Source of the DNA: Candidatus Laterigemmans baculatus
GTDB lineage: Bacteria; Planctomycetota; Planctomycetia; Pirellulales; Pirellulaceae
Assembly (NCBI RefSeq): GCF_010367455.1
Contig: NZ_WRPR01000126.1
Location: 1 to 64,000 of the forward strand
Reading direction: 5' to 3'
DNA length: 64,000 bases
The notes beneath the pieces were generated by a model. The model saw nothing but the letters and a program-made list of their open reading frames with translations, was not told where the DNA came from and ran no database searches. Each line of letters starts with the position of its first letter. The first letter of the stretch is position 1. Both the position numbers and the translations under genes were made by a program. Shown piece by piece: positions 28,722-49,140 of this stretch.

Positions 28722-30824
28722 TCAATGTGCGGTCGCGAAACGCATGGGTTGCACCAAAACATTCTGCGCCGAAGGGCCCTCTGCAACGCGCCGGCGCAAG
28801 AGGTTCAGCGCAAGGAGATACGGCAGGCATCGCGCGAACTTTAGACCCTCGATAGCTCTTTCGTCGATCTGGGGTTGCATGTCACGGGGGTCGAGGTCTC
28901 TGAGTTGGGCGAGCGCTTGGTTGAGAGCGGTCGGTTGAATGTCGGCGGGGAGAGTGAGCTTGAAGCTGTCGTGGGGGATATGGGTTTGGAGGCGTTGGGC
29001 TAGCTCGTTGGCTAGGGTGGCGTTGGCGGCGGAGCCGGCGAAGGTCCACCAGGTTAGGCTGTCGGTGGTTTGGAGGACGACGGTGCTTCCTACATCGAGC
29101 CAGGGGTAATCCAGGCGGGCCTGCTGGATCTGTTCGGCAGCTCGGCGGGACCAGTAGGGGCGGGTGTCGTCGCTGGCCAGGACGCGGCGGATGGATTGGG
29201 TGAGTGCGGCGCTGATCCCCTGCCCTTCCCCGTGCCAGCGGGAGCGGCCCTTGGCGTCGGAGGGTTCGACGTAGGCGATCCGGCGCTGCCAGTCGATGTG
29301 GTTCACCTGCCACGGCCGGCCGCCGAGGAGCAGCACGCGGGGGCCGTCCTGTTTGGTGAGAAAGCTCATCTGGTCGACGTAGCCGAGCTCCCTCCGCCCG
29401 TGCAGGATCGAGAACAGGGGCGGCGAGGTGAAAACCGAAAAGAGCTCGAGGAAGTTTTTGCGGCCGAAGGCGCTTTCGCCCTCTCGACCGAGCCAGAGGA
29501 TGCCGGCGTCATCCCAGAGAATTTCCTGCTCGAGCATCCAGTCGACGATCTCTTCGATCGTCTCCGGCGGCATCTCGGCGAACCCTGGGACGCCGCGGAT
29601 CCAATCGAACCAGTCTCGTCGCCCAATGCCGCCTTCCTGCAGGGCCAAGGCCATCAGCTGTTGGGCGAGGATGTGGTAGGGCGCCGGCGGCGGCTGGACT
29701 GGTTCGACATAGCCGTCGGCCCAGAGATCGACTAGCGCGGCCGCTTGCAGAAGGGTGGCCTCCTTGGTGGCGAGAAAGAGGCAGTTTCGCTCGGTGCCGG
29801 CCCGTCGTCCGGTGCGACCCATCCGCTGCAAAAAGCTGGAGACGCTCGGGGGCGAGTCAATTTGGATCACCCGGTCGAGGTTGCCGACATCGACGCCGAG
29901 CTCCAAGACGCTGGTGGCGACGATCACGCAGTCTTCACGCGAGGCGAAGGCTTCCTCGGCCTGGTGCCGCTGCTCTTGGCTGAGCGAACTGTGGGTCACG
30001 AAAGTGGTGACGTCGAGCTGCCGCAGCTCCGTGCCCAGCTGCTCGGCTCGTGAGCGGCTGTCGACGAACACCAGCCGCTTCTCACCCCGGTGAAGACGGG
30101 AGATCACAGTCGCGGCGTTCTGAAGCGATCCCACGTAGTCGAGCCGCACGTCCGCTTCGCCGCCGCCCGACTCCGGCGGCAGATAGACGCTCCGCTCTCG
30201 CTGGCAGGAGCCGGCCAGCCAATCGACCAGCGCCTCCGGATTGCCCACGGTTGCCGATAACCCGATGCGCTGGGGCTCACGGTCCGCTAGCCGGGAGATC
30301 CGTTCCAGGACCGAGAGCAGGTGCCAGCCTCGGTCGTCGCCAGCAAACGCATGGATCTCGTCGATGATCACGACCTGCAGATTGCTGAACAGACCGCGGG
30401 CGTCGACATTCTTCGAGATCAGCATCACCTCCAGCGACTCGGGGGTCGTCAGGAGACAGTCCGGCGGCTCTTGCAGAATGCGTCGGCGGGCGGACTGCTT
30501 CACGTCGCCGTGCCAGAGGCCGGAGCGTCGGCCGAGTAGCGTGCAGTAATGCTGCAGCCGGACGTCGAGGTTGTTGAGCAGCGCCTTGATCGGGCAGATG
30601 TAGAGGACGCTCAAGCCTGACCAACCCTCGGAGAGCATCCGAGAGATGGTGGGAAACATCGCCGCTTCGGTCTTCCCACCCGCCGTCGGCGCCAGGATGA
30701 TGATGTGCTGACCGCTGAGGACCTGCGGGATCACCGCCTCCTGAAACGGTCTCAGCTCACGCCAGCCCAGACTGTTGACGATCTGGTACTGGAGGGCGGG
30801 ATGCAGCTGGTCGAACGCGCTCAC
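28722..30824 (-). CDS. brxHI: BrxHI helicase of BREX type 2, 700 aa
   Basis: This is a superfamily 2 DEAD/DEAH-type helicase related to Lhr. Motifs are LAPTAGGKTEAA (about residue 42), VVIIDEIHAFAG (about 150), LSATVG (about 195), VATSVLELGVDVG (about 305) and QRMGRTGRR (about 335). The C-terminal 330 residues resemble the Lhr-type winged-helix and extension domains. In BREX type 2 this is the last gene of the operon. The stop of brxD overlaps its ATG (ATGA at 30821), so it is co-translated. No missing motif is seen. Confidence 0.85.
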   Translation of the reverse strand: MSAFDQLHPALQYQIVNSLGWRELRPFQEAVIPQVLSGQHIIILAPTAGGKTEAAMFPTISRMLSEGWSGLSVLYICPIKALLNNLDVRLQHYCTLLGRRSGLWHGDVKQSARRRILQEPPDCLLTTPESLEVMLISKNVDARGLFSNLQVVIIDEIHAFAGDDRGWHLLSVLERISRLADREPQRIGLSATVGNPEALVDWLAGSCQRERSVYLPPESGGGEADVRLDYVGSLQNAATVISRLHRGEKRLVFVDSRSRAEQLGTELRQLDVTTFVTHSSLSQEQRHQAEEAFASREDCVIVATSVLELGVDVGNLDRVIQIDSPPSVSSFLQRMGRTGRRAGTERNCLFLATKEATLLQAAALVDLWADGYVEPVQPPPAPYHILAQQLMALALQEGGIGRRDWFDWIRGVPGFAEMPPETIEEIVDWMLEQEILWDDAGILWLGREGESAFGRKNFLELFSVFTSPPLFSILHGRRELGYVDQMSFLTKQDGPRVLLLGGRPWQVNHIDWQRRIAYVEPSDAKGRSRWHGEGQGISAALTQSIRRVLASDDTRPYWSRRAAEQIQQARLDYPWLDVGSTVVLQTTDSLTWWTFAGSAANATLANELAQRLQTHIPHDSFKLTLPADIQPTALNQALAQLRDLDPRDMQPQIDERAIEGLKFARCLPYLLALNLLRRRVAEGPSAQNVLVQPMRFATAH

Positions 30825-32140
30825 AGTTCCAATTCAATCTCGTCGACGTCGGTGGCTCCGGCCGCGTGGCGTTCCACTGCGCTCAGCTCGCTCTCGCTGA
30901 CGGTCAGGGCGTAATCTTCGCGAGGCCGGAAGTCGGGGTGCAGGTCGATGCGGTCTAGGACGTCGGCGACTAGCTTTTTGAGGAAGATCCGGGGGGCGAT
31001 GCCGACTTTACCGCCTAGCCGGCCAGTGACCGCTTCAGCCAAATCGCGGATGTAGCAGTCGTCACAGAGCTCGCCGATTCGCTCGGCAGAATTACTGTGA
31101 GCGCTGTAGATGTCCCGCACCTTCTCTCCGACGCGGCAGAGGCGTTCGAGGTCGAAGCCAGGGAGACGGATCTGCGGCGCACGCGGATTGTCGAAGCGGG
31201 TATCGGTCTGGAAGTCGACGTGCAGCCGCTGGGCAAGTGGCTCGAGCCGCTGGATTCCCTGGGGTCCCTCGAAGAAGGCGGGCGTGCCGGTGACGACGAG
31301 GTAGAGCCCGGGAAAGCGGCCGGAGTCGACTTCATCGATCAGTTGCCGCAGCGCATTGAGGCCCTTGTCCCGCACGTCGCTGCGAACCCGCTGGAGTGTT
31401 TCCACCTCGTCCAGCACGACCAACAGCCCTGGGTGACCACAGTCGCGGAGGACGATCAGTAGGCCCTGGAGGAAGTTCAACGCCCCGAAGTGGTCGATGT
31501 CCCCCTTCACTCCGGCGTAGCGCTTGGCGCTGGCGGCGACGTTCGGTTGGCCAGCTAGCCAGGCAACAATACCCTCGGCGGTTGCCATGTCGTTTTCAGC
31601 TTGCGCCCGGCGGTAGCCGCGCAGCGCCGCGCTGAACATCGGCGCCGTGCTCGTAACTCGCCCGAGCCTCTGCTCAAGCAGTTCGTCGGTGCGGGCAAGC
31701 AGGGCCTCACCGTCATTCGGATCCACCTGCCCTTCCGCGAGTGCGTCTTCCTCAAGTGTGTAGAACCAGCTGTCGAGGATGTTCCGCAGCGCTCCCTGTG
31801 GCGTGTCCGCGGTCGCCAGCCGCTCGATCAGTCGGCGGTAGACGGTCTCGAGCCGATGCAGCGGTGTTTCGGTTTCGGAGATCTGCACCTCGGAGGAGGC
31901 GAATCCATTCTTTCTGGCCCGATCGGCCAGCCAGCGTGCGAAGAACGTTTTGCCGCATCCGTACTCGCCGCGCACGGCCTTGAACACGCTGCTGCCCGCT
32001 TTCACGTTCTGTAGCTCAGCCTCCAGAGCATCTTCAAAACGGCCCAGTCCGACCGCAAAGGCATCGAGGCTGCTTTGCGGCACCGTGCCGCGACGGAGCG
32101 CGTCGATGATCTCTTGGCGGCGCTGGGGGCTGATGGTCAT
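30821..32140 (-). CDS. brxD: BrxD, P-loop ATPase of BREX type 2, 439 aa
   Basis: The start MTISPQRRQEIIDALRRGTV is chosen at ATG 32140; a frame 21 codons longer exists but begins near a repeat. Walker A is VRGEYGCGKTFFARW (about residue 58) and Walker B LLVVLDEVETLQ (about 240), with the DUF2791-type segment following. The C-terminal winged-helix-like region ends in acidic residues. BrxD is the ATPase partner of the helicase BrxHI in type 2 BREX. It overlaps brxHI by four bases and is separated from pglZ by about 115 bp that contain half of a palindromic repeat. Confidence 0.85.
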   Translation of the reverse strand: MTISPQRRQEIIDALRRGTVPQSSLDAFAVGLGRFEDALEAELQNVKAGSSVFKAVRGEYGCGKTFFARWLADRARKNGFASSEVQISETETPLHRLETVYRRLIERLATADTPQGALRNILDSWFYTLEEDALAEGQVDPNDGEALLARTDELLEQRLGRVTSTAPMFSAALRGYRRAQAENDMATAEGIVAWLAGQPNVAASAKRYAGVKGDIDHFGALNFLQGLLIVLRDCGHPGLLVVLDEVETLQRVRSDVRDKGLNALRQLIDEVDSGRFPGLYLVVTGTPAFFEGPQGIQRLEPLAQRLHVDFQTDTRFDNPRAPQIRLPGFDLERLCRVGEKVRDIYSAHSNSAERIGELCDDCYIRDLAEAVTGRLGGKVGIAPRIFLKKLVADVLDRIDLHPDFRPREDYALTVSESELSAVERHAAGATDVDEIELEL

Positions 32141-32194
32141 TAAGGCGGAATCTCCGGGCTTTACTGTCGCGATCGTGATTTCGTGGAGGAGGGC

Positions 32195-32222
32195 CTCACG
32201 CAAAGGCGCAAAGACGCAAAGG
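32195..32222. repeat. Family 1 palindromic repeat, single arm
   Basis: CTCACGCAAAGGCGCAAAGA followed by CGCAAAGG is one arm of the repeat family seen complete at 38778, 40194 and elsewhere. It lies between pglZ and brxD. Confidence 0.7.
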
Positions 32223-32255: not shown

Positions 32256-34994
32256 CTATTCGAGCTCGAACTGTCGGCGGAGCAGGTCTTGGTTTAACTC
32301 GACCGTGTCGGACGCGTCATCACGGGTGAGGACGGCGTAGCCCTCGATGTTGAGCATACGTTGCATCATGGCCAGGAAGCCGGGCAAGCGCACCGGTGGC
32401 AGCTCGAGCCGTCGAGCCAATGCGGTGGTGGTGAGTTTTCCACCGGCAGATTCGAGTGCGGCCAGCAAACTGCTGATCTGCTCGTCTGTCGGCTTGATGC
32501 GGCCGGCGAGCTGTTTTTGCTGCTCTAGAACCGGCGACGCCAGCAGCGACTCGATCCACTGCGGCTGAGCTTTCGCGGTGGAAGCGGCCGGCATGGCGGT
32601 GTTCTCGGCCGGCTCCAGATCGAATAGCAGCCCCGGCTTGGTGGGTTCCGGCAACTCGGCCGGTTCGGCACTCTCCACCGTGGCCATCTCAGCAACCGCG
32701 TCGTCCCACCACGCCGGCGTGTCGAGCGGAGCCAGTGCCCAGCCCTCGGGAACCTTCTCGCTTGGCGAGAGCACAGCGATCGGAGCGATCATCTCCTGAG
32801 GCGAGAGTCCCCCGTGGTAGCCGTTGCTCTTGCCGCGGGTGTAGCGAATCGTCTCGCTCCAGGGGACGATTACTTGCTGGTCGTCGGCCAGCATCACCCG
32901 ACTGCCGCTAACCAGCAGCTCACCTTCTTGCGGCTGTCCATCGTTCGGACGCCAACGCTCGCCGCTGTTCTGAGGTGCATCAAGGTTGTGGGAGCGGTAC
33001 TCGGTGCGATGTTCCAGCACATGCCCGTGGTCGCTGACGAAGATCACCAGCCGCCCCGCCGTATGCGCTTCGTGCAACAGCATTGGCAGGATCTTGATTT
33101 GGTCTCGGCTCCAGCGGATATCCAGCTGATCCCCTTTCGCCAATGTGTCATCGATCGCGTTGATGACCACCCCGACCACCTTCCGACCAGTCGACGCAAT
33201 CTCATCTCGCAGATCGTCAACCGCGTCCGGGCCGTCGGCGTCGGCGAGGTCGACCTTGTGAAACAGGACCGGCGGCTTAGTGCGTCCACACTGTTTCACC
33301 AGCGCCGGGTGCTGGGCGAACCCTTTCTGCTCAGCCGCCTGGTCCCCCTGCTGCAACTGGCCGGTGAGGAGGCTCGTGCGAGAAACCTTGGTAACCGAAG
33401 GGATCGTCGCCAGCGCTGGCTGGAGCGTCGCCGCATCGGTCTTACACAGCACCGTCCAGTCGTTGCTGCGAGTGATACTGCTGAGCAACTCGCGGCAGAC
33501 TGCCCCGCTCATGCCATCGAGAACCATCAGCAGCACCGGAAAATCAGCCGCCAGTGGGCCGACCAATTGCTCCAGCACCCGCTCGACAGGGATCACGCCA
33601 CCGCCGGTCGAACCGGCTGCCGTCCAGTCGCGTGCAAGTTCGGCGAACCGCCGTGCCTGAGGCTCGCGCAGCTTGTTCGCCGCGGCGATCAGCTCGCCGT
33701 AGGCTTTCGAAAGGTCCCGCTCCAGGTCGCCGCTGCGCAGGGTTAGCCGCGCCCAATCGACGAACGAGCCCTCGGCCAAGTGCCACTCCGCTGCCTCAGC
33801 CAGCGACGCATGCTCAGGCGGTCCGCTACGGCTCACGTGCATCAACCACCGCACCAATCGCAGGGACATCTCGACCCGTTCCAACCGCCGCCGGTGATTT
33901 TCGTCGCGAGCCAAGTCGTGGTCGGAGATGGCCTCCTTCAGTTCCACCAAGTGCTCCGAGACGACCACGGGGCTGCTCTTCAGCGTTTGCCGCAGAGCCT
34001 TTCCGTAGCGGGCCATTCGCAGGTTGAATCCACGCGGTGAAGTTCGGCTGAGCCAGGCGAATTGATCCGCCTCCACGTCGGCCAGGATCTCGTCGCAGCG
34101 TTCCAGCAACGAATACCGCAGCTTGGGACGCGATCCGAAGTGAACGGTGACGACCTCACTGGCGGTGGAATGCCAGCGGCTGATGACGTTTTCCTCGAGC
34201 GACTGACCGCCCAGATAACGCTCTTCGAGACGTACGGCCGGTTTGTCGAGCTTCCCTTTCGCACTCTTGTGGAACACCACTCCCAATGCCAAACCGATCG
34301 CTACCGCGTCGGCTTTTTCCGACCGAGTGAGCATCGTGAGAATGGCTGTCGCGGCCGGGCCGGCCGTTTGGCTGATCCAGTCGATGGCAGCCTTTCGGAA
34401 CTCCGTCGATGTCGCTCGCCAGCGGTCGACGTTTTCGCCGTGGACCGACCAAGCGAGCAGCGCGGCGAGGTCGGGCTGGTCAGCACTGAGCCCCAGTTCT
34501 CGCTCCAGCAAAATCTGCCACACCGTCTCGGCATCGAGAAACCCGCTGGGCGACGGCGGGTAACCCTCGGCCGGCATCGAGTCGAGCAGCTTTTCAGCCA
34601 TCCAAGCGTGCCGGGCAATCCGCGGATCGAGGGATCGCGCCTGAAATAGGCTCTGGACGATCTGCCAAGCGTCGATGGTGAACAGTCGGCGTTTGGCCAG
34701 CCGCAGCAGGACATCCATCTCCAGGTCCGTGTCCGACAACTGTGTCAGCAGCACCTTAGTCGTGACGTCGGGCCGGGTCTCCTGCAGAGCCAGCCGCATC
34801 GCGAGCGGCGAATCGCACTGGACGATCCAGTACCGCTCGTCGCCGTCGGTCCGCTCCGCGTCACCGGCCCAGCGACCGTTCGTGTGGATTCCGACTACCT
34901 GCGCGTCATCGGTGCGGTCCGAGCGCTCCAGTGCCTGACGGATCGCCCTCACCTGGGCCTTGATCTCGTGGAACGAGGGGGCAGCCACGGCCAT
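32256..34994 (-). CDS. pglZ: PglZ, phosphatase-superfamily protein of BREX type 2, 912 aa
   Basis: PglZ is present in every BREX type. The alkaline-phosphatase-type core is visible: LLMVLDGMSGAV (metal Asp, about residue 490), SVTKVSRTSLLTG (about 535), VVGVVINAIDDTLA and LVIFVSDHGHVLEHR (about 650), with SHNL and an RY/RYTRG segment afterwards. The N-terminal 480 residues are helical, and a Pro/Ala-rich linker is followed by a winged-helix-like C terminus (about 830-912). The length is typical of type 2. The gene begins 2 bp after the stop of pglY and so is co-translated with it. Confidence 0.88.
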   Translation of the reverse strand: MAVAAPSFHEIKAQVRAIRQALERSDRTDDAQVVGIHTNGRWAGDAERTDGDERYWIVQCDSPLAMRLALQETRPDVTTKVLLTQLSDTDLEMDVLLRLAKRRLFTIDAWQIVQSLFQARSLDPRIARHAWMAEKLLDSMPAEGYPPSPSGFLDAETVWQILLERELGLSADQPDLAALLAWSVHGENVDRWRATSTEFRKAAIDWISQTAGPAATAILTMLTRSEKADAVAIGLALGVVFHKSAKGKLDKPAVRLEERYLGGQSLEENVISRWHSTASEVVTVHFGSRPKLRYSLLERCDEILADVEADQFAWLSRTSPRGFNLRMARYGKALRQTLKSSPVVVSEHLVELKEAISDHDLARDENHRRRLERVEMSLRLVRWLMHVSRSGPPEHASLAEAAEWHLAEGSFVDWARLTLRSGDLERDLSKAYGELIAAANKLREPQARRFAELARDWTAAGSTGGGVIPVERVLEQLVGPLAADFPVLLMVLDGMSGAVCRELLSSITRSNDWTVLCKTDAATLQPALATIPSVTKVSRTSLLTGQLQQGDQAAEQKGFAQHPALVKQCGRTKPPVLFHKVDLADADGPDAVDDLRDEIASTGRKVVGVVINAIDDTLAKGDQLDIRWSRDQIKILPMLLHEAHTAGRLVIFVSDHGHVLEHRTEYRSHNLDAPQNSGERWRPNDGQPQEGELLVSGSRVMLADDQQVIVPWSETIRYTRGKSNGYHGGLSPQEMIAPIAVLSPSEKVPEGWALAPLDTPAWWDDAVAEMATVESAEPAELPEPTKPGLLFDLEPAENTAMPAASTAKAQPQWIESLLASPVLEQQKQLAGRIKPTDEQISSLLAALESAGGKLTTTALARRLELPPVRLPGFLAMMQRMLNIEGYAVLTRDDASDTVELNQDLLRRQFELE

Positions 34995-34996
34995 GT

Positions 34997-37900
34997 TTAC
35001 GCCTCCTCCTCAATCCGCCAGCTGACGCTAACGCGGACGGTTCGCCCTGCTGTCGCTTTCTGATCCAGTTCCGTCAGCAACGCGTTCGCTTCGCTCAGCC
35101 CCAGATCCTGTCGGGTGTCCTGCTCCACCACACGTCGCCCCGGCTGCGGTGGCGCAGGTTGCGGGGGAACGGGGGGAAGCATTCGGGGAGTTCGCGGTTC
35201 CCCAGGGCCTGCTGGTGGAGTTGGCGGCGGCGCAGCGCCGGCGGGCGCCTTAGCCAACAGGCGGACGGCACGCGATTGAGCGGACTTCAGCGCCGGGCCT
35301 AGCGCCAGGACGTGCTCGTCGCTTCGAAGGGCTTCAGCGACTTCGGCGATGATTTTCTCCGCCGCCTGCTGCCGTTCATCCTGCAGCTTTCGGATCGCAT
35401 CCAGAATCTCCCAGTCGGTGGCATCGAGCCGCTCGGCTTGTTCACTGGCATTGCCATAGCAGCTGCCCATCGCTTCCAGCGAAGTCGCCACCTCTGCCTT
35501 CGCCAAAATCTCCACCACGGAGCCCGCTTCGGCCGAGCCAAGTGCATCGGCGAGCGTCAGAGTGGCCGTAGCCGTCTGGAGCCGATCGGCCGAGTCCGGA
35601 TTGACGCCCGCCCACTCGAGTCGCTCCCGAAGACGACTGCAGAGCATCTGGCAGGCGCGGCGTGAAGTGCCGGCTGCCTCCTTAATCTTCGAGGTGAGTG
35701 CCGAGACGTTGGCGGCTTTCAGCAGCGGCGAGGGAGCCATGCCGAAGATTTTCGCCGACCGTGCCACTGCCGCGTCCCAGTCCGGCTTGTCGGGCAGTTG
35801 CTCTTCACGTAGCACGGCTCTTTCGGGCAGATCGGTCAGCTTGGCCTGATCGTAGATCCCACCATGCAGGTAGAAGGACTGGTTAGTCTGCTCGGCGAAG
35901 ATCAGGATCACCAGGTTCTCCGCCTCTCGCGGCAAGCCCATCGGCTTGGGCTGATCGATCCACTCTCGCAGTTTCTCCACGGACATCTCGCTGCCGGTTT
36001 CGGCCGTTTTCCGCATGAAATGGTTCCGCCAATGGTGCCCGAGCACAAAGTGGGTGGCGTCGTAACCCATTTCGCCCAGCATCAACGGACCAGCGATTTG
36101 CCGTAGCAGCGGCCGCAATGGTTTGTCCACCAGGACGCGCCCGTCCTCGCTCTGGGTTGCCTCGCTGACCACCTCATAGACCTTGCGGAGGTTCGTCGTT
36201 TTGACGTCGGCCTCGAAGTAGGGGTGGGCAGGGAACTCATGCGCCAGTGCCTGGTCGAGCAGGCTTTCCATCGCCCCACGGAGATTGGCGGCGACCGGAG
36301 GCTGCGGCTTGAAGCCAGGCAGGAGCGACTGGAAACGTTCGGAGAGCTCGAGGTCATGCACCGTGTCGAGCGATCCGGTGAGCACTTGGTCGAGCCCGTA
36401 TGCTGCCTCGAGATGGCTTTGCACGCGCTGCCGCAGGACGCTGCGCTGGTTATCGAGCAGCGACTTGGCTGTCTGCCGGTCCTGGGGCGAGAGGTGCGAA
36501 GCGTAGCCGCCAAACCGCTCGCCCGTGAGGATGTGTTCCAGGATCACCAGCATTCCCAGATCCCTCTCGGCATCGGTACTGAGAAAGGCGGGAATCCAGA
36601 CGAGGGTCTTTGTGCCTTCGGGATGTGCGTCGAGAAACTCTTGAACCTTGCTGACGTCGTCCCGCGGTCCGTGCCCACTCTCGTCGAACGGAAAGTCGAT
36701 CACGAGCTTCCATTCGTCTTCCGCCTCGAGTGACGAGAGCGGCAGCTCACGCATGTTGCGGAACAGCACCTCGCAGGTCCGCCGCGTGTGCCGCCAGGTG
36801 AATTCGTGATGGAGGAAGAACTCGTCGCTGTCGGCGATCCCGAGCTGTTCGAAGATCATCTGCCGCGTGCGGCGGATGCGATTGCCGATGTTGTTTTCTC
36901 GGCCTGCCTGCTCGATGATGCTGCCCGTGTCGACGCCGGACAACTGGACGGTGATCGTCGGGTTGGCTTCTTCGCCGAGGCGAATCTCGCCGACATCGGC
37001 CGCCCACTGTTTGCAGCGCCGCAGCACTTCCGCCCCTTCGCGTCCCGGGATCGGCGTCTTGATCGTTCCATGGTTGAGCGCCGCCAGCCGCTCGGCGTTC
37101 AATCCGCGCAGGGCCTCGACGTCTGGCGCCAGCGCGGAGAGCAGGAGCGTCTTGATCAGCCGGTCGTCGTTGCGGAACGCGACCCGCTTCGGATCGTCAA
37201 ACGGCAGCTTCTCCAGTTCTTCGACTCGTCCGTGCGTGCGTTCCAGCTGGGGCAGCAGTTTTTGGTGGTAGAGCCGCCGTGCGTTTTCAAAGTGGCTTGC
37301 CATCTCGGGGCTGAAGGCTTCGTCACCGTGCGCGATCACATCGAACAGATCACCCACCGGCACGATGTCGCCCAGCTGAAGCGTCTCTCGCTGCTCGACC
37401 AGCAACTGGGCCATCGCCTTGAGCGCCGTCCGCTCCCGCTGGAGCATGCTGGAGAGCGCGATCAGGGTCTGCACCAGCGCCGGGCTGAACGGGTAGACCT
37501 GGCGGAACATCTGCCGGTCGCCCTCGCTGGTCAGCAGCGTGGTGAGCACCGAGTCACGGACTTTGGTGACCCGCTCAAATGCCGCACTGATCTCATTGCG
37601 AGCTGCGTTATCGCGGGGACAAAGCACCCGCCGCTCGGCAATCGCGGGCAGATTGCGATCTTCAAGCGTGATCGTGTGGAAGCGACCTTCCTGGTATCCC
37701 AGGGCATCGGCGAAGTTGTGCTTCTCCATCCCCGGAATTTTATTGCCGACCAGTTCGCGCAAGTCGCGCTGGCGGGCAACAAAGCTGACGATCGGCGTCG
37801 GGCGATCAGCCGTTTGGGCCTCGACCAGCTTGGCTAGCTTTTGCACTTCTTGGTGCACGAATTTGACGTCGGCCGCACGGCTGGCGAGCCAGAGGATCAG

Positions 37901-38710
37901 CTCGTCGAGAAACAGGATCAGACAGTCGTAGCCGAGCGACGCCGCATGTTTGCTGATCACCGACAGCCCGTGGTCGAGCGAGACGTAGGCTTCGCCGCTG
38001 CCGGAAGAGACCGCGTGGTACTGCTTGAAGTAGGTGCTCAGCAGTCGGCTGATCAGCTGCAGACGCTCGTCGTCGCCGGGCGGTGCCGCGATTGCCTCAT
38101 CAAACCGCCGCGCGTCCCACTCGGCTTCGAATTCCCCCCAGCCGCCGTCGCCGCCTCCTTCACCCTCGTTCAGTCCGGTGAAGAACGCTGCGTCGCCGAT
38201 TTGCTGGCGCAGCGAGTGAGCATCGCGGAATAAGCCTTCGCTGAGGTAGACGGCCGGGATGGGCGCGTTCGGGTGAGTTCGGCGAATGAAGTCGACGTAG
38301 CCGCCCAGAATGCCCGATTCCATCGTCGTGGAGCCGAGCATGTGGTACGGCACCATCAGGAATTTCTTGTGCTCGCCCTGCGTCCACTCGTTGTGCTTGT
38401 CGATCACGCCGGCCAGCTCGGTGATGCTGCGGGCGGCGGTGTTGCCCTGCAGGATCAGGTGCAGGACGGCCATGAAGTGGCTTTTACCGCTACCGAAGCT
38501 GCCGTGCAGGTAGGACGCCTTGCTGGTGTTCGAGACCAGCGCGCTGCGGACGAACGACAGCGCATCGTCAAAGCACTTTACGAGCTCCGGCGTGGCGACG
38601 TAGTTCTTGACCGTCTGATCGGCACGCGTCACCCCCTCGGAGAGCCGCAGCACAAAGTCGCCGCGCTGGATGTGCTCGGGGATGTCGATGAGGTCTTTGA
38701 GGAGGGTCAT
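34997..38710 (-). CDS. pglY: PglY, ATPase of BREX type 2, 1237 aa
   Basis: This is the large AAA-like ATPase (DUF6079 type) of the Pgl system. Walker A is YLHGSFGSGKSHFMAV (about residue 68) and Walker B CLILFLDELILWLASR (about 260). After it come helical regions with a QERETLQLGD-type segment and a Pro-rich linker (about 1160-1195), then a small C-terminal strand-rich piece ending VRVSVSWRIEEEA. The start is MTLLKDLIDIPEHIQRGDFV, which is the usual PglY opening. The gene is followed by pglZ after 2 bp. A family 2 repeat lies directly upstream. Confidence 0.88.
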   Translation of the reverse strand: MTLLKDLIDIPEHIQRGDFVLRLSEGVTRADQTVKNYVATPELVKCFDDALSFVRSALVSNTSKASYLHGSFGSGKSHFMAVLHLILQGNTAARSITELAGVIDKHNEWTQGEHKKFLMVPYHMLGSTTMESGILGGYVDFIRRTHPNAPIPAVYLSEGLFRDAHSLRQQIGDAAFFTGLNEGEGGGDGGWGEFEAEWDARRFDEAIAAPPGDDERLQLISRLLSTYFKQYHAVSSGSGEAYVSLDHGLSVISKHAASLGYDCLILFLDELILWLASRAADVKFVHQEVQKLAKLVEAQTADRPTPIVSFVARQRDLRELVGNKIPGMEKHNFADALGYQEGRFHTITLEDRNLPAIAERRVLCPRDNAARNEISAAFERVTKVRDSVLTTLLTSEGDRQMFRQVYPFSPALVQTLIALSSMLQRERTALKAMAQLLVEQRETLQLGDIVPVGDLFDVIAHGDEAFSPEMASHFENARRLYHQKLLPQLERTHGRVEELEKLPFDDPKRVAFRNDDRLIKTLLLSALAPDVEALRGLNAERLAALNHGTIKTPIPGREGAEVLRRCKQWAADVGEIRLGEEANPTITVQLSGVDTGSIIEQAGRENNIGNRIRRTRQMIFEQLGIADSDEFFLHHEFTWRHTRRTCEVLFRNMRELPLSSLEAEDEWKLVIDFPFDESGHGPRDDVSKVQEFLDAHPEGTKTLVWIPAFLSTDAERDLGMLVILEHILTGERFGGYASHLSPQDRQTAKSLLDNQRSVLRQRVQSHLEAAYGLDQVLTGSLDTVHDLELSERFQSLLPGFKPQPPVAANLRGAMESLLDQALAHEFPAHPYFEADVKTTNLRKVYEVVSEATQSEDGRVLVDKPLRPLLRQIAGPLMLGEMGYDATHFVLGHHWRNHFMRKTAETGSEMSVEKLREWIDQPKPMGLPREAENLVILIFAEQTNQSFYLHGGIYDQAKLTDLPERAVLREEQLPDKPDWDAAVARSAKIFGMAPSPLLKAANVSALTSKIKEAAGTSRRACQMLCSRLRERLEWAGVNPDSADRLQTATATLTLADALGSAEAGSVVEILAKAEVATSLEAMGSCYGNASEQAERLDATDWEILDAIRKLQDERQQAAEKIIAEVAEALRSDEHVLALGPALKSAQSRAVRLLAKAPAGAAPPPTPPAGPGEPRTPRMLPPVPPQPAPPQPGRRVVEQDTRQDLGLSEANALLTELDQKATAGRTVRVSVSWRIEEEA

Positions 38711-40311: not shown

Positions 40312-43300
40312 TCACGTCGCGGCCCTCCGGCGACCACGGCCGCGGGACGTTTTCTTGGGTGGTTGCCACGCCCGGATCTCGTCGACGGTCTTGCCTAGCT
40401 GCCTCGCTTCGTCCTGTACAAAACCTTCGAAGTAGTCGCCCATGCGGGTGCCTCCGTATTCGGCGCTGGGCTCGTTGTGCCACTGCTTGAGCCAGGGGAT
40501 CAGCTCGAGGAGGCCGGCGAGCAGCGGCTCGAGGCGGGGATCGCCGGCTCCGCCGACTTCATCCTTGATGTGCTGGAAGTACTGGCCGATCGCCAGCGCC
40601 TGCTGGAGGTGGTCGTAGCCGGCCCAGGCGATCGGCAGCGAGCCGTCTTCGCCCTCGCAGTGCGGAAAGCTGATCCACCGCTCCTTGGGCACGTCCAGCT
40701 TGCCGCGGAGAGCCCAGTAGCGAGCACCGCCAGTGGAGATGAAGTCGCCGCTGGTGTACTTGGGAGGAACCGGGATCTCACGCAAAGGCGCCAAGGCGCC
40801 AAGAGTCTCTCGTTCTTCTCCCTCCTTTGCGCCTTTGCGCCTTTGCGTGAGCTCGTCTTCCTCCCGCTGCAGCTCCCACGTCCGCTCCCACTCGGCCCGC
40901 TTCCGCAGCCCCGACGGCTTGTACCGCAGCACGGGAAGTAGCGGCACGCTCTCGGCAGCGACGAGTTCTTCGACCAAGCGGTGAACGTCGAACGCGGGGT
41001 CGTCGCGATACACTTCCGCCGCTTCCATAAACGCAGCGTCTTTTGAGGCCACGTCGGCCAGGTTGGCGGTGGAGACGATTCGGATCTCACGCAAAGGTGC
41101 AAAGGCGCCAAGTGATTCCCGACCGTCCTCCTCCTTTGCGCCTTCGCGCCTTTGCGTGAGCCCCTCCGACATCCGGCCATCGAAGTCGAAGTAAGCCTCT
41201 AGCCGATCGAGCAACCACTCGCGGAGCGCCCGCTCGACCTGCGACTCCCAGGGCTCGGTATTCCAGCGGCGTTTGTATTCGGGCTGTTCGATTAGGGCGA
41301 TCTGCGGGTTCTTTTCGATTGCCTCGATCCGCCGCTCGACGAGTTGTCGGTAGTCGTCGGGCCAGTGGGCGGGGAGTTCGGTGATGGGAGTGCTGCCGTG
41401 GCGGTCGAACCAAGTGGTTTGGACATTCTTTCGGGCGAGGACGATTTCAAAGGCGCGCTGGCCGAGGTCGATGGGAAGGGAGTTGTCAGTCGTCAGTTGA
41501 CAGTTATCAGTTTCTTGAACGCCATTTCCTGACGACTGATCACTGACAACTGATAACTCACCGCTCACCAGTTCTTCGTTGAGTAGTCCGTAGAGCTGGT
41601 AGCACTGCCAATCGAGGTCTTCTTGGAGGCGGATCATCTCGCCGCGGGTTTGGGTCCAGGCGTCGTGGGCGGTGGTGAGGGCCTCACGCAAAGGCGCCAA
41701 GACGCCAAGGTCAGAGCCCCCTTCCTTTGCGCCTTTGCGCCTTTGCGTGAGCACCTGATCGGGCGCAAACGTAGCGAGCCGCTGGGATAGCGAGTCGAGA
41801 TCCCGGGTCAGCTCCAGCGGTCGGGCAGCGGGAAGCGGCAATTGCTTCAGCTTCGTGGCGTTGTATGCGAAAAAGTCCTCAAAGGGACTTGTTCGCTGTC
41901 TCGCACCATGTTGATCGACCGTACTGCCCTTGTTGTGGCACACCTGCTTCATCCAGAAGCAGGCGGTGGAGCTGTTGAGGAGGCCGAGGAGGGCCAGGTG
42001 GTCGTCCTCGCTCGCCTCGCGAGGCAGCTTGATCACCGGAGCCGTCTGCTTGAATACCTTCCCACCCCGGTCGAGCACAAAATGATTATGAGTCGCCACC
42101 TCGCCAAACACGATCGACAGGGGCGTCTGATTGCGGTCGATGGGGATCTGGTGATATTCCCAGTATGGGCGCCCGCACTGTCGGTACGATTGCTTGCTGA
42201 AGTCGTTTCTCTGCCAGAGCACACTCCGTACAGGCCAGAGCCAACGCTCAATCTCGCTCCGATCGCATAGTACAATGTTTTGGTCGTAGGGAAACAACGC
42301 GTTGAACTGCCAGCCAAGAGACCAGTCGCGAACTTGCTCGCCTTCAACTATTGATCGCCGGCGACTTGAGGGAAGTTGCCTTATGCGTGGAGAATTACCC
42401 GGGCCAGAAAATGCCTCGTCTTCACCCAAAATTGCGCCGAATCCAATGCATATTGAATGCGTCGCGACTGTGGATGCCGCTGATGATTCAAGCTCTTCCT
42501 TCAATTCCGCGGCACCGCCCCCGCCAATGGACCACGGATGCTTGTGGAATAACTCCCGCTCCGAGTCGCCGACACTCACGAATTCGCTCTGAGATCGTGG
42601 CTGATCGATCTGCTCGATAATTGCCGACCACACGCGTCCTTGCGCCGGATCGTCCGGCGTGCTTGGTTCCCCGCGAATCCCCATCACCGTACGGATCGTG
42701 CCATTCACCGGCTTACGGTTCTGACCGAATAGAATCACTGTCGGCGTGCCGTGGCCCGGGATGTATGCCCCGCTGGTGTCGATTACGTGCGTGAGGTTCA
42801 TCGTCGGGAAAAACGACTCGATTAGCTTCTTTCCGAACTCGCGTTTCATGAAGCTGTTGGCTGTGATCTGACCGACGTAGCCCGCTGCGCGGGAGTTGTC
42901 AGTAGTCAGTTGACAGTTGTCAGTGCCCTTTGACTGATGACTGACAACTGACGACTGATGACCACCACCTGAGAACTGACCACTCTTCACCGCCAGCCGA
43001 AACAACCGCTCCATGAACGGGACGGCCAACGAATACTTCATGTGGCAAGAATCGGGATACAACCTCCGGTAGGCTTGATTCGCCGCGCGATCCTTCGGCG
43101 TGATGTAGGGCGGATTCGCCACGACGCAGTGAAAGGTGCCCTCCCGCAGGATGCGGCGCAGTTCGTCGGCATCTTCGGTCGCGAAGTAGTGCGCCTCATC
43201 GCTGATGTCTTCGAACTGCAGTTGCGATTCCCGCCCGTGATAAAGTGAATCGCCGCAAGCGAGATGCATCCGAAAGGCGGGCGCGTCCTTCAGCCGAGTG

Positions 43301-44283
43301 ATGCCGCAGGCTCGCAGTGCTGCGAGCAGCAACCGGAACCGCGTGATCGCAATGGCATACGGGTTCACATCGACGCCGTGGATCGAATCGAGCGTCCGCT
43401 GGACTAGCTCGCGTACTCCCGTCCCCGGCTCCTGACGCTGCCAACGGTCGAGGATGCGTGGGAAAGCGCCGAGCAGGAAGTGGCCGGATCCGCACGCAGG
43501 ATCAATCATGCGGAAGCGATTCTCACGCAAAGACGCTAAGCTCGCCAAGGAAGATCTGCCGCCGTCTTCCTCTTCGCGCCTTTGCGCCTTTGCGTGAGGC
43601 TCCAGACCGAATTCATCCAGGGCCGGATCGAGCGTCCGATCGAGGATGAATTCCTCCACGAATTCCGGCGTCTGCAGCAGCGCGTACTTTTTGCGTGCCG
43701 CTTCGGAGAGGTCCTGGTAGAGGTCGCCCAGGAACCGCGTGTCCCATTCGGGATCGGTGAAGTCGTGGACGAGCTGGCCGCTGTTGGCGTCGATCTTCTG
43801 AAAAAATTTCAGTAGATCGCCCGCTGCGTCACCACTGAGCCACGTCGGCTGCTGGTGAATGAGGTTGTGCCGCCCAAAAATCTCCTCGCCGCCCTTCAGC
43901 TTGGCCAATTCGCCAAACACATGCAGCAGGTACTCCCGGTCCGTCTCCGTCGGCGCCGAGCGGAAGTACAACTCATGCTCGTCCCGAGCCCGCTTCAGCC
44001 GCTCGCCTGGACCGGCCAGCCGCGGTGGATCGACCAGCTCGTTGTCTTCCAAGAAGCGAGCAAAAACGCAGGAAAGCACCCAGGCCGCGGCGATCTGAGT
44101 TGCGTAGTCCGAGAGCCAGTTTTCGTAACTGAGCGCCGTACGCTCCTGCTCCTTCGCCTTATTGAACTCGGCTTCGAGAGCCTCACGTACCTCCGGCATC
44201 TCGTCATGCCGCTCGCGCAGGTCAGCTTCGAGACGACGCAGTAGGGCCTGTAAATCTTTCAGCAGTTGTTGGCGATTTATCAT
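40312..44283 (-). CDS. pglX: PglX, adenine-specific DNA methyltransferase of BREX type 2, with six in-frame repeat insertions (1323 aa)
   Basis: PglX methylates host DNA in BREX systems. Motif I is MIDPACGSGHFLLGAF (about residue 257) and the catalytic motif IV VVANPPYITPKDR (about 390). The N-terminal helical region and the C-terminal target-recognition part fit PglX. Six palindromic repeats lie in frame. Four copies of family 1 are at residues of about 229-254, 844-867, 1041-1066 and 1144-1169, reading like LTQRRKGAKEG and APLREI. Two copies of family 2 are at about 443-463 and 908-934, with TDNCQLTTDNS. The first family 1 copy ends only a few residues before motif I. ATG 44283 (MINRQQLLKDLQALL) is preferred to 44301, which lies at the edge of another repeat. 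No frameshift or stop is seen. Confidence 0.88.
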   Translation of the reverse strand: MINRQQLLKDLQALLRRLEADLRERHDEMPEVREALEAEFNKAKEQERTALSYENWLSDYATQIAAAWVLSCVFARFLEDNELVDPPRLAGPGERLKRARDEHELYFRSAPTETDREYLLHVFGELAKLKGGEEIFGRHNLIHQQPTWLSGDAAGDLLKFFQKIDANSGQLVHDFTDPEWDTRFLGDLYQDLSEAARKKYALLQTPEFVEEFILDRTLDPALDEFGLEPHAKAQRREEEDGGRSSLASLASLRENRFRMIDPACGSGHFLLGAFPRILDRWQRQEPGTGVRELVQRTLDSIHGVDVNPYAIAITRFRLLLAALRACGITRLKDAPAFRMHLACGDSLYHGRESQLQFEDISDEAHYFATEDADELRRILREGTFHCVVANPPYITPKDRAANQAYRRLYPDSCHMKYSLAVPFMERLFRLAVKSGQFSGGGHQSSVVSHQSKGTDNCQLTTDNSRAAGYVGQITANSFMKREFGKKLIESFFPTMNLTHVIDTSGAYIPGHGTPTVILFGQNRKPVNGTIRTVMGIRGEPSTPDDPAQGRVWSAIIEQIDQPRSQSEFVSVGDSERELFHKHPWSIGGGGAAELKEELESSAASTVATHSICIGFGAILGEDEAFSGPGNSPRIRQLPSSRRRSIVEGEQVRDWSLGWQFNALFPYDQNIVLCDRSEIERWLWPVRSVLWQRNDFSKQSYRQCGRPYWEYHQIPIDRNQTPLSIVFGEVATHNHFVLDRGGKVFKQTAPVIKLPREASEDDHLALLGLLNSSTACFWMKQVCHNKGSTVDQHGARQRTSPFEDFFAYNATKLKQLPLPAARPLELTRDLDSLSQRLATFAPDQVLTQRRKGAKEGGSDLGVLAPLREALTTAHDAWTQTRGEMIRLQEDLDWQCYQLYGLLNEELVSGELSVVSDQSSGNGVQETDNCQLTTDNSLPIDLGQRAFEIVLARKNVQTTWFDRHGSTPITELPAHWPDDYRQLVERRIEAIEKNPQIALIEQPEYKRRWNTEPWESQVERALREWLLDRLEAYFDFDGRMSEGLTQRREGAKEEDGRESLGAFAPLREIRIVSTANLADVASKDAAFMEAAEVYRDDPAFDVHRLVEELVAAESVPLLPVLRYKPSGLRKRAEWERTWELQREEDELTQRRKGAKEGEERETLGALAPLREIPVPPKYTSGDFISTGGARYWALRGKLDVPKERWISFPHCEGEDGSLPIAWAGYDHLQQALAIGQYFQHIKDEVGGAGDPRLEPLLAGLLELIPWLKQWHNEPSAEYGGTRMGDYFEGFVQDEARQLGKTVDEIRAWQPPKKTSRGRGRRRAAT
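40777..40851. repeat. Family 1 repeat inside pglX (copy 4)
   Basis: The outer arms are CTCACGCAAAGGCGCCAAGG and GCGCCTTTGCGCCTTTGCGT. The minus strand reads in frame as LTQRRKGAKEGEERETLGAL then APLREI. Confidence 0.9.
41086..41160. repeat. Family 1 repeat inside pglX (copy 3)
   Basis: The arms CTCACGCAAAGG and CCTTTGCG-type sequence frame a variable centre. The minus strand reads LTQRREGAKEEDGRESLGAF then APLREI. Confidence 0.9.
41481..41558. repeat. Family 2 repeat inside pglX (second copy)
   Basis: AGTTGTCAGTCGTCAGTTGA and CACTGACAACTGATAACT are inverted arms. The minus strand reads LSVVSDQSSGNGVQETDNCQ then LTTDNS in frame. Confidence 0.85.
41683..41751. repeat. Family 1 repeat inside pglX (copy 2)
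   Basis: CTCACGCAAAGGCGCCAAGA pairs with GCGCCTTTGCGCCTTTGCGT. The minus strand reads LTQRRKGAKEGGSDLGVLAP then LREAL. Confidence 0.9.
42894..42957. repeat. Family 2 repeat inside pglX (first copy)
   Basis: AGTTGTCAGTAGTCAGTTGA and ACTGATGACTGACAACTGAC are inverted arms. The minus strand reads QSSVVSHQSKGTDNCQLTTD in frame. Confidence 0.85.
43522..43598. repeat. Family 1 repeat inside pglX (copy 1)
   Basis: CTCACGCAAAGACGCTAAGC and CGCGCCTTTGCGCCTTTGCG are the arms. The minus strand reads HAKAQRREEEDGGRSSLASL then ASLREN. It ends about three residues before the methyltransferase motif I. Confidence 0.9.
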
Positions 44284-44844: not shown

Positions 44845-47800
44845 TCATTCGGGCCCTACTGCTGCTAAATGCCGACTGCGGTGTACGTTTCTGATCCAAC
44901 TCTCAGGAACCTGCGCTCGCTGAGCGGGGCTCAAGACTGGAATCGCCTTGCCATCCATCAGGGGCTGATGGTCTCCGGGAACTAGGAGCCAGAGGCCGGG
45001 GAGTCGGCCGTCGCGGCCGAGGGCGTCTCGGAGACGGTCTAGCAGGTCGAGTTGCTCGTAACGGCCGAGCAGGTTCGCGTAGGTCAGCAGGACGGTGCGG
45101 TCGCTGCCGCGGATCTGCTCTTCCATCTGCTTCACCGCCCGACTGACCAGCATCAGCAATTTGCGCCAGTCGCCGCTGCCGGGTTTGGCATCGGTCTTCA
45201 AGACCAACGTCCAGTCGACGCGGGCTTTCTCGGCGGCGGCCTTGAGCTGCTCGAGGAACGTCGCCTCAAAATCGACCACTTCCACCGAGAAGCGACGCGC
45301 GATCTCCTCGACCGCTTGTTGGTAATCGCGAGGGTGGACCAGTAGCGCCAAAAACGCTCCGTCGCGGGCGGCTCGCTGCAGCCGCTCTTCAAACTGCCGC
45401 GCATCGGCTTCCTCCGGCGAGAGCTCTCCGGCCGGCAATGGTCCCCGGGTGGTCGGTTGGCGCTGCAGCGTCTCGCTGCCGCTGGTGACGGTGAAGCCGC
45501 TCCCTCTGGGGCCGACGTAGCAGCCGACGCCGCGTCGACCGTGTTTGCGGTAATCGGCGGCTGGGTCCCAGCGGAGTTCCAGCCCTGCGGCGCGGAGCAT
45601 ATCGTCCAGCTGTGGGCGTCCGGGCAGCGGCGCCGCGTCAGGATAGCGGCCCTGCACCCGCTCGAGCACTTCTTCGACCGTCAATTGCTTCACGCCGACC
45701 AGCGCGTTGTACGACAGTCGCAGTGCCCGAGTTGCCTCCATCCCGCGGGGATAGATTTCCTGACGGCTGGAAACCGCAGCGGTTTCGGATGCCGCAGTGG
45801 CGAGCCGCAGCAGGCGGGAATCGGTCAGCGGCTCGGCTTCGTGCGGCAACGGTACGGCCCGCAATCGCTCCATCGCGCGAGCGGGAGCGGCCAGGGGATC
45901 TTCCGCGGCGAGCTGATCGGCCACGCGGCCGAGCGAGAAAGCGTAACCAGCGAGCTCTTGGCCGGTGGCGACGATGACGCGTCCGCCCTCGCGGCGCACC
46001 AGGAAACGCGGCTCGGCCGTGGTGCGTTCCACTTCTAGCGCGGCACGTGTGACCGCTGCCGCCAGCTGCGACCGCATCGGCTCGTCTTGCACCGAACCAC
46101 GCGCGGCGAGAACTGCCTCGCTGAGATCCGCGGCGGACAGCACCCCGCCGGCCGCGACCAGAATCTCGTGGATCTCTTCTCGCAGCCGGCTGATCGCAGC
46201 ATCCCGCCGCCAGCGTTCTTGCAACTTGCCCACGATCTGCCCCACGCGGGCTCGAGTCACCTCGACGCAGCGAGCCACGTCCGACTGCGTCGCCCACGCT
46301 TGCTGTGCATCGGAAGCGAGTCCCAGGAGGATTTCGAGCACCCGCTGCTGCGCCTGCCCGGCTCGAGTGCTGGCTTTCGTGACGCGACGAATCAGCAGAT
46401 CCACGCTGAGGCTGTCGACATCCTCGTCTTTCGCCTCTTCATCGCTTACCTGCGGAACGCCGCCCGCCTGCTCAGGTCGTCCCAGCCGCTCTCGCAGGAT
46501 GCGGATCGCCAGCGAGATCTCGCGACGCGTCTTGTTGCCCACGCCGCGCAACCGCAGGATGCGGCGCATCGGGAAGGTCAGCAGATCCTCGACGGTGAGA
46601 ATGTTGGCTCGGTCGAGGGCGTTGGTGGCGCGGGTGCCCAGGCCTAATTCCGGGATTTGAGTGTCGAACGTGGCATCGGCGAGCAGCTCCCGCAGCTGAT
46701 CCTCGTCCTCGACGTCGGTCAGCGCTCCGGCTTCCTCGACGCCTTCGAAGCTCAGCCGCCAAGCCCGCTGCATCTCCTCGGCGTTGTCAAAACGCTCGCT
46801 GGGATCCCGCCGCAGGGCTTGCTCGAAAAACGCGGTCAGCGATTCGCGTAGTCCGCTGTCGAACAGCTCCGGATTGATCGTCACTTCACAGCTGTCGGGC
46901 AGCTGTGACGGTTCGGTGATGCCGTCTCCCCACAGGGGCAACGTGCCGGTGGCCAGTTCGTAAAGCGTGACAGCCGCGGCATAGCGTTCCGCGTGCAGGT
47001 CCCACCGCGGAGGCGAGGGCTTGCGCGTTGGGAGCGTCGGGTCTAGGTAGTGCTTCGTGCCCGCACGGATGTTTTCCGCTGGCGTGCGGGAGAGCGAGAA
47101 GTCGAACACTAAAGCGTGAAGCCGGTTGCTACGGCCAGCTTGTGCCACAGCGATGTTGTCCGGCTTGATGTCGCGGTGCGGGATTCCCTGCTCTTCCAGG
47201 AAATTCAAGACGTCCAGCAGGTCTTCGCCGAACCGCTGAAGCAGATCGATGTGAAGTCGCCCGTCACGCCGCACCCGCTGGCCCAGCGTCTCGATCTTCT
47301 TCTTGGCTCGCTCGACGAAGGCCGGCTTCATCAGGAAGCCAGCGTACGAGCCGATCTCTACGGGTGAATCCAGCTCGACGATCCGTGCGTGCCGCAGCTT
47401 GCCGAGAATCTCCGCCTCTTCGTGGATGCGGTCGTTGTGATCGGTGTCGTTGGCAACCTTGAGGATGAAATTCTGCTCGCCCCGTTCGACTAGGAACGCG
47501 ATCGACGTCGACCCTTCGCCGATGCGGCGGACAACGGTGTAGCCGCCAGGGAACGTGTCCCCTTTGCTCGCATGATGCGGATCGTCGACGTGGTCGACGT
47601 CGGGACTGGCCACCTCCGCTTCGACCGCGTCCAGATCCTCGAGAAAACGAGCCACGGACTCGGGGCGATTGGGTACTTCAGGGTGCGTGCTTTCCTGGAC
47701 CAGCGACTGGAGTGCCTCACCGGCGCCACCAAGGACCGAGCTGATCTGCAGCCCGCGGGTCTCGCGGAGCTTGTTGCTCAGCTCCAGGCCATTCGCCGCG

Positions 47801-49140
47801 GGGGCTTCCCCGGAAAAGAGGTGATAGGCGATGCAGCCGAGCGAGAAGACATCGAGGTGTTCGCCGGTGTTGTCCCCGTCGGACATGGCTTCTGGCGCCA
47901 TGTAGGCGGTGCTGATGTCGTCGACCAGCTGATCCACATGGGACGTGGCGGTGATCTCGCGGGAGACGCCGCTGGACGCAGTGCCGCCGCGGTAGCCGGC
48001 CTGCCAGTTGAAGATCTTCACCCGGGGGCGACCGCCAGCATTGGTAACCAGGATGTTCTGGGGGCTGAGGGCGCGGTGGACGATTTTCTTCTCGTGGGCG
48101 TACTGCACGACTTCAGCGATTTGCCGCAGGAGCTCGAGGCGAGCTTCGGGAGTCAGCTTGGCGCCGCGTTGGGCCAGGAAGTGGTCAAGCCGCAGGCTGA
48201 GCGGGTCGTGCTCGAAGATCAGCGCTGGGCCCAACTCGTGCTCGGTGAACCCGTAGATGCGGAGGATGCCGGGGTGCTCGAGCGTTTCCAGCAGCTGGGC
48301 TTCGCGCATGGCCGCCCGCTGGATCATCTGCCGGTCATCGTCGTTGGCACTGGTGCGAACGAGATAGATACGAACGCGGCGCCGCGTCTGAGACAGCTGG
48401 ACGTGCGTCGCCAGCCAATCCTGGTAGGCCGGACGGCCGCCGAGCTCTTTTCCTTCGCCAAGCAGTTGCTTCAGCTCGAAGTCACTGACTTTGCGATGCC
48501 GTCGAGACGGCCGGATACCGGCTTGGTCCATCGCCTGGCAGATCAGCCGCGCGGTTTCGCGGTCGCCGCCTCCCTTCGGATGCGGATCGAGTCCCGGGCA
48601 CTCCCGCCGCTCAAGAGCCGCCATGATCCCCGGCCGCGGCCCCTCGGACTCCTCTCCGCCGTCACGAATGCAGACGCGGTAGGCGGCGGTGCCTTCCAGC
48701 TGGAGCCGGAGGGCGGGAGCCGAGCAGAAGACCAGGGACTCGATGAACGGGACCCGCCCCCGCTTGCGCTTGACGACTTTCTGCCGCCCGAGCAGCGAAG
48801 CCAGCTTTTTGGCCTTTTGGTTCGCCAGGTACAGCGGGTTATCGGTCGTGACGAGTTTTCCGTCCGGCTTCTGCCAGGTCCACGTGCCGGCATCCCCCCG
48901 CAGCTCACCCGGCTGGGATTTGATCTCGACTAGGAACAGCCCGACCGGGGAAAGGACGAGCAGGTCGACTTCGTTGATGCTGCCGTCATCGGCGATGAAC
49001 TCGAAGTTCGACCACGCGCGGAACGGCTCGCGCTCGGGCAGCCGCTCGCGGACAAAGTCCAGCGCGTCGCGTTCCCAGGGAAACTGCGACTCCGAAACGG
49101 TCGTCCAAAACTGCGAGCCCATACCTGATTTGCTTTCCAC
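44845..49140 (-). CDS. pglW: PglW, NERD and kinase-domain protein of BREX type 2, 1431 aa
   Basis: The order of domains is as follows. NERD nuclease-related domain: EVDLLVLSPVGLFLVEIKSQ at about 56-75. First kinase-like domain at about 245-500: KIVHRALSPQNILVTNAGG has HRA instead of HRD, and KIFNW replaces the DFG motif, so it looks catalytically dead. Second kinase domain at about 540-800: GEGSTSIAFLVERGEQNFILK, HRDIKPDNIAV at about 655, and DFSLSR replacing DFG. Then an RNA polymerase alpha-CTD-like helix-hairpin-helix (AFNVGRATVNALDRANI-type, RGVGNKTRREIS) at about 830-890, HTH-like repeats and the usual C-terminal PglW region. The kinase phosphorylates partners in the Pgl system. Only the second domain is likely to be active. 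The gene is first in the BREX transcription unit after the HTH gene. Confidence 0.9.
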   Translation of the reverse strand: MESKSGMGSQFWTTVSESQFPWERDALDFVRERLPEREPFRAWSNFEFIADDGSINEVDLLVLSPVGLFLVEIKSQPGELRGDAGTWTWQKPDGKLVTTDNPLYLANQKAKKLASLLGRQKVVKRKRGRVPFIESLVFCSAPALRLQLEGTAAYRVCIRDGGEESEGPRPGIMAALERRECPGLDPHPKGGGDRETARLICQAMDQAGIRPSRRHRKVSDFELKQLLGEGKELGGRPAYQDWLATHVQLSQTRRRVRIYLVRTSANDDDRQMIQRAAMREAQLLETLEHPGILRIYGFTEHELGPALIFEHDPLSLRLDHFLAQRGAKLTPEARLELLRQIAEVVQYAHEKKIVHRALSPQNILVTNAGGRPRVKIFNWQAGYRGGTASSGVSREITATSHVDQLVDDISTAYMAPEAMSDGDNTGEHLDVFSLGCIAYHLFSGEAPAANGLELSNKLRETRGLQISSVLGGAGEALQSLVQESTHPEVPNRPESVARFLEDLDAVEAEVASPDVDHVDDPHHASKGDTFPGGYTVVRRIGEGSTSIAFLVERGEQNFILKVANDTDHNDRIHEEAEILGKLRHARIVELDSPVEIGSYAGFLMKPAFVERAKKKIETLGQRVRRDGRLHIDLLQRFGEDLLDVLNFLEEQGIPHRDIKPDNIAVAQAGRSNRLHALVFDFSLSRTPAENIRAGTKHYLDPTLPTRKPSPPRWDLHAERYAAAVTLYELATGTLPLWGDGITEPSQLPDSCEVTINPELFDSGLRESLTAFFEQALRRDPSERFDNAEEMQRAWRLSFEGVEEAGALTDVEDEDQLRELLADATFDTQIPELGLGTRATNALDRANILTVEDLLTFPMRRILRLRGVGNKTRREISLAIRILRERLGRPEQAGGVPQVSDEEAKDEDVDSLSVDLLIRRVTKASTRAGQAQQRVLEILLGLASDAQQAWATQSDVARCVEVTRARVGQIVGKLQERWRRDAAISRLREEIHEILVAAGGVLSAADLSEAVLAARGSVQDEPMRSQLAAAVTRAALEVERTTAEPRFLVRREGGRVIVATGQELAGYAFSLGRVADQLAAEDPLAAPARAMERLRAVPLPHEAEPLTDSRLLRLATAASETAAVSSRQEIYPRGMEATRALRLSYNALVGVKQLTVEEVLERVQGRYPDAAPLPGRPQLDDMLRAAGLELRWDPAADYRKHGRRGVGCYVGPRGSGFTVTSGSETLQRQPTTRGPLPAGELSPEEADARQFEERLQRAARDGAFLALLVHPRDYQQAVEEIARRFSVEVVDFEATFLEQLKAAAEKARVDWTLVLKTDAKPGSGDWRKLLMLVSRAVKQMEEQIRGSDRTVLLTYANLLGRYEQLDLLDRLRDALGRDGRLPGLWLLVPGDHQPLMDGKAIPVLSPAQRAQVPESWIRNVHRSRHLAAVGPE

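Follow-up and report, generated by a model that had tools for sequence, protein, structure and literature searches.

The BREX cluster and its repeats

The window, by which we mean the whole stretch of 64,000 nucleotides that was analysed, is part of contig C42 of a 5.76-Mb genome with relatives that include Gimesia, Pirellula and other Planctomycetota. Its minus strand carries a complete type 2 BREX cluster, assigned from the match of its methyltransferase to the BREX-2 PglX model and the presence of the five other genes in the same cluster. The PglX protein is full-length with its motifs present, and extends about 140 residues beyond the 1185-position NCBI model by way of hairpin inserts. The genes are as follows.

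28722..30824, minus strand: brxHI, insert-free
30821..32203, minus strand: brxD, with a half copy of repeat A at the gene start
32256..34994, minus strand: pglZ, insert-free
34997..38710, minus strand: pglY/brxC, insert-free
40312..44283, minus strand: pglX, BREX-2 adenine methyltransferase and host of six in-frame inserts; 1323 aa, stop-free; NF033451, 1535 bits over 1185 positions; PDLC02529
44368..44772, minus strand: GxxExxY gene (PDDEXK_3) in the gap between pglW and pglX; PF13366, E 1.7e-37; TIGR04256; D74, E84 and K86 kept, as judged by conservation
44845..49140, minus strand: pglW (NERD, kinase), insert-free

A 164-aa open reading frame at 39298-39792, in the gap between pglX and pglY, had no family match and no relative among the other BREX loci examined. 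Elsewhere in the window, positions 3070-5121 and 14742-28216 hold a phage-integrase-family recombinase and genes of defence type, namely a protein with an AbiJ N-terminal domain, an SNF2/helicase, a PLD-domain protein and a DUF4011 helicase-nuclease. Their presence on the same contig as the BREX genes suggests a defence island, and GC content gave no signal marking it.

The pglX gene holds four elements of family A (a CTCACGCAAAGGCGC.. palindrome) and two of family B (built on a CTGACAA heptamer), all of them in frame.

40777-40851, minus strand: insert A1, family A palindrome, residues 1145-1169 (LTQRRKGAKEG..ALAPLRE), 25 residues
41086-41160, minus strand: insert A2, family A palindrome, residues 1042-1066, 25 residues
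41478-41566, minus strand: insert B1, family B heptamer palindrome, residues 906-936, 31 residues
41683-41751, minus strand: insert A3, family A palindrome, residues 845-867, 23 residues
42891-42985, minus strand: insert B2, family B heptamer palindrome, residues 433-465, 33 residues
43522-43598, minus strand: insert A4, family A palindrome, residues 229-254, 26 residues

The original prediction, made from the letters of the sequence, was of six in-frame palindromes, four of one repeat and two of another, that add about 150 residues without loss of frame, one of them abutting motif I. Translation, coordinates and folding confirmed this: the inserts total about 160 residues with no stop codon, and A4 ends about 6 residues ahead of motif I (IDPACGSGHF). 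Folded as single-stranded DNA and compared with shuffled sequences, the A copies formed hairpins with z-scores of -5.9 to -9.5, stronger than those of the B copies (-3.5 and -4.2). A known RNA family was ruled out as the identity of the inserts by the lack of any Rfam match across positions 28000-50000 of the window.

Further copies, which the original prediction left unmentioned, lie outside pglX, including half copies of B at 38715-38745 and around 40288.

32195..32213, minus strand: half copy of A at the brxD start
38778-38847: A palindrome upstream of pglY, adjoining a half copy of B
40194-40254: A palindrome immediately downstream of pglX
44293-44364: complete A palindrome flanking the GxxExxY gene towards pglX
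44762-44836: complete A palindrome flanking the GxxExxY gene towards pglW

Three of the four intergenic A copies have lengths that would shift a reading frame and the copies inside the gene shift none, a difference that fits selection on an open frame.

We aligned the protein to 84 homologues, only 0-20% of which fill the cores of five of the segments; the A1 site is a native loop of variable length that about half of the homologues fill with other sequence. The alignment ruled out native conserved segments and showed the six segments to be insertions, the repeat being absent from most of the 84 homologues. The closest match in the genome collection, from Gimesia (L051), is only 60% identical, and the exact DNA junctions are therefore unreadable. 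No target-site duplication was seen by eye in the flanks inspected.

Repeat families around GxxExxY and S23 genes

Two complete A palindromes bracket the GxxExxY gene between pglW and pglX, and all four GxxExxY genes of the source genome have short-period repeats nearby, each of a different family. Among loci from Planctomycetota, inverted short-period repeats bracketed 74 of 88 GxxExxY genes at a score of at least 14, as compared with 2 of 112 distal controls, a set that also includes distal stretches of S23 loci. The inverted match of the two flanks had a median score of 21.25 in the 88 loci, and distal stretches taken from these loci scored 9.5 (p = 6e-23). The dominant repeat period was 8-11 nt in the 36 loci with a measurable period, and family A in the window likewise has inverted repeats of this period on both sides of the gene. 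The palindrome-gene-palindrome layout of the window recurs in Gemmatirosa (L251), and inverted repeats flank a GxxExxY gene on two Bacteroidota plasmids (L253 and L254); the flanks of two further GxxExxY genes (L252 and L255) fell below the score threshold. Judging by these comparisons, family A looks like a gene-less form of the GxxExxY-type repeat.

A similar arrangement was found for genes of the S23/four-helix-bundle family (PF05635) in Planctomycetota, 24 of 26 of which were bracketed by inverted repeats (controls 2/112), and the period was 7 nt for 18 of the 24 bracketed loci. The repeat unit of family B is also 7 nt, and in a related genome (G121) an S23 gene with CAGCTGT-type heptamers lies in the pglW-pglX gap, adjoining pglX. 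Family B is best read as a putative gene-less form of the S23 type, assigned by period and type and not by direct linkage, since the BREX cluster of the window has no S23 gene. In one other locus (L224, G084:C1:441250-442043) an S23 gene directly adjoins a match to a PglX-like methyltransferase.

GxxExxY and S23 genes are common, occurring in about half of the Planctomycetota genomes searched and often in several copies, and their neighbours are genes of all kinds. A role as BREX accessories was rejected on account of this variety of neighbours, which fits a dispersed element better. To our knowledge, no function is established for the stand-alone forms of either gene. No GxxExxY relative was found on viral contigs. 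The open-access literature gave no account of repeats around GxxExxY genes, an earlier description elsewhere being possible, and a 2026 survey of BREX systems makes no mention of inverted repeats, four-helix proteins or S23.

Pattern searches of the source genome found 17 sites for the family A motif at up to 2 mismatches and none for the reversed control. All 17 are in the BREX cluster, as are 11 of the 16 sites for the B pattern, the remaining five belonging to a different repeat (CTGACAC). Another two repeat families are spread over dozens of contigs of the genome, with 89 and 195 sites, and have none in the 84 kb examined of the BREX contig. Since A and B are restricted to the BREX cluster in this genome, the cluster was probably imported together with its repeats from a donor in which they were common. 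Genomes rich in A exist, as seen from the 141 exact sites in G044; that genome has only two GxxExxY genes, and the one inspected is bracketed by another family, not A. A mis-binned contig could also account for the confinement, but when one other gene of the contig was searched against 40 relatives, its best matches came from the same family.

Insertions in PglX and the state of the enzyme

We scored hairpins in BREX genes outside the window, taking a score of 17 or more as strong. Seven strong hairpins were found in 350 kb of pglX, versus none in about 860 kb of pglW, pglY, pglZ, brxD and brxHI. Under a uniform model the chance of all seven falling in pglX is about (350/1209)^7, or near 2e-4, a value that is only rough because two of the seven share one gene and two are in paralogues of one genome. 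Among 20 sampled repeat regions, none had a hairpin inside a Pfam-supported gene body (the count covers Pfam-matched open reading frames), which speaks against such hairpins being commonplace within genes.

The sites of insertion recur as well. The A2 site is also hit in L071, L102 and L105, the B1 site in L047, L069 and L127, and the B2 site in L047; the A1 site is also hit in L069, where both cases were read from the aligned peptide and not hairpin-scored. At the A3 site, an A-type element is found in L057 and a decayed, in-frame A-type element in L052, while at the A4 site L057 has a heptamer-like peptide; the L052 and A4 cases were likewise read from peptides in the alignment and not hairpin-scored. 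Several of the hits at shared PglX loops belong to repeat families that differ from one another. The tree joins the window protein to L051 and L035, and places L052 and L057 elsewhere in a ten-leaf clade (node support 0.41). From these separate positions, insertion of the A3 type probably happened more than once, or the element was lost or exchanged. A Bacteroidales MAG (L069) is an independent replicate of the pattern in the window: its pglX has a GxxExxY gene for a neighbour and contains, in frame, a hairpin of matching repeat type.

Other hairpin families (GGGAGCGCCGG..., GCGGGAGGGC..., CCCCTCTCCCC...) are in frame in the pglX genes of L047, L102, L105 and L127. The 1614-aa planctomycete PglX of L035 has about 330 extra residues made up of TSRDREGADQ-type repeats with internal hairpins, near the position of residues 561-566 of the window protein. 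In an Armatimonadetes pglX (L110:3491-3540), the A1 site is occupied by what looks like a native helix. Its DNA (GCGCAGAGGCGCAAAGACGCAGAG) is similar to family A along one side and not the other, a likeness that could be accidental or stem from a half copy of A in decay.

The motifs DPACGSG (motif I) and NPPY are present and intact in the window PglX. AlphaFold models had mean pLDDT values of 85.0 for residues 1-620, for which the best structural match was to BrxX/PglX structures, and 82.6 for residues 560-1323. All six inserts were among the low-confidence parts of an otherwise well-folded enzyme, with pLDDT of about 60 for A4 (drawn as a weak helical hairpin), about 42 for B2, about 40 for B1, 44-48 for A2 and reduced values for A3 and A1. 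Insert A4 comes before strand one of the methyltransferase fold, a position that, from the general architecture of this fold, would put it away from the SAM end.

The original prediction had left it undecided whether the inserts are tolerated loops or have altered or killed the enzyme. Intact motifs, low confidence of the modelled loops, homologues with other in-frame hairpins at the same sites and the decayed element still in frame in L052 together give tolerance the better support. Going by sequence and predicted structure, the window PglX most likely works with the inserts as tolerated loops, and the hairpins are most likely selfish.

That the insertions have inactivated PglX, or are doing so, in a decaying gene that is still open by chance seems improbable to us. 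Six inserts in one gene are extreme, A4 is just ahead of motif I, and an mRNA with strong hairpins could be a target for RNase III, the enzyme that cuts S23 intervening sequences out of the 23S rRNA of Coxiella (PMC4990558). Yet every one of the six insertions keeps the frame free of stops, although three of the four intergenic A copies would shift it, the motifs and all other BREX genes are intact, and other full-length pglX genes also hold in-frame hairpins.

Less probable still is that the inserts are adaptive, altering the specificity or interactions of PglX and selected for this, with PglX a favoured and not merely tolerant target. The repeated hits on PglX sites by different families, with the other BREX core genes spared, and the GxxExxY or S23 genes directly upstream of pglX in five loci are in line with such selection, but the inserts are predicted to be poorly ordered, and a proximity to pglX need not be functional for genes that are found beside all kinds of neighbours. 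Hardly credible is that the segments are native PglX loops merely resembling the repeats, as could be argued from the other residues that some homologues have at these loops and that about half have at A1, given DNA near-identical to intergenic copies of the same cluster, hairpin z-scores down to -9.5 and no genome match for the reversed pattern.

Relation to known elements and implications

The original prediction likened the inserts to the palindromic elements of Rickettsia, which are inserted in frame in protein genes and translated (PMC10969869). The likeness stands for the effect, a palindromic in-frame insertion in a protein gene, but goes little further. The Rickettsia elements are about 150 bp and spread over many unrelated genes, whereas the elements described here are 61-95 nt in two families, confined in this genome to the BREX cluster, and coding only in pglX apart from the half copy at the brxD start. 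A and B are also found between genes, and are of the type that brackets GxxExxY or S23 genes.

With MITEs they share a short, gene-less structure with terminal inverted repeats, dispersed copies and a putative gene-bearing relative. They differ by the lack of a visible target-site duplication, and their gene-bearing form encodes GxxExxY or S23 and not a known transposase; the GxxExxY gene between the A palindromes has nuclease-type residues and no known transposase activity. Two short inverted repeats making a hairpin are also a feature of REPIN/RAYT systems, but the Y1_Tnp genes of the source genome are bracketed by other repeats, and RAYT was ruled out as a partner, L256-L258 lacking A, B and the two resident repeats. 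The intervening sequences of 23S rRNA likewise have inverted repeats around an S23 gene, whereas family B in the window consists of gene-less heptamer hairpins in a protein gene.

We consider it about 75% probable that gene-less hairpins of two element types have entered permissive loops of a PglX that most likely still works, in a cluster that was probably imported. The six segments would be MITE-like, with A belonging to the GxxExxY-type elements (8-11-nt units) and B to the S23/four-helix-bundle type (7-nt units). Because PglX stayed under selection, only frame-keeping, stop-free insertions would have survived, to be translated as loops. The GxxExxY nuclease, or another factor, possibly moves the hairpins in trans. 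The mobility of the hairpins is itself inferred, with neither an empty site in a close strain nor a target-site duplication seen.

Beyond the in-frame inserts, the link of A and B to element types, the hot spot in PglX, the confinement to the cluster and the low-confidence loops are new, and the phenomenon is more general than the window. More tentatively, and with odds somewhat against it, GxxExxY and S23 genes may each form the coding part of a so far unrecognised class of very small mobile element. Either class would have short-period inverted repeats of its own kind and gene-less hairpins that are copied in trans, and PglX would be a preferred in-frame landing site for these hairpins, which would repeatedly remodel its surface loops. 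With each gene tied to its own class of inverted repeats, and with gene-less hairpins present in frame within a defence enzyme, what had been genome debris without an explanation can be framed as a mobile-element hypothesis that is open to testing. The results also show PglX to be unusually receptive to insertion, and suggest that the donor of a defence cluster acquired by transfer can be recognised from its repeat families.
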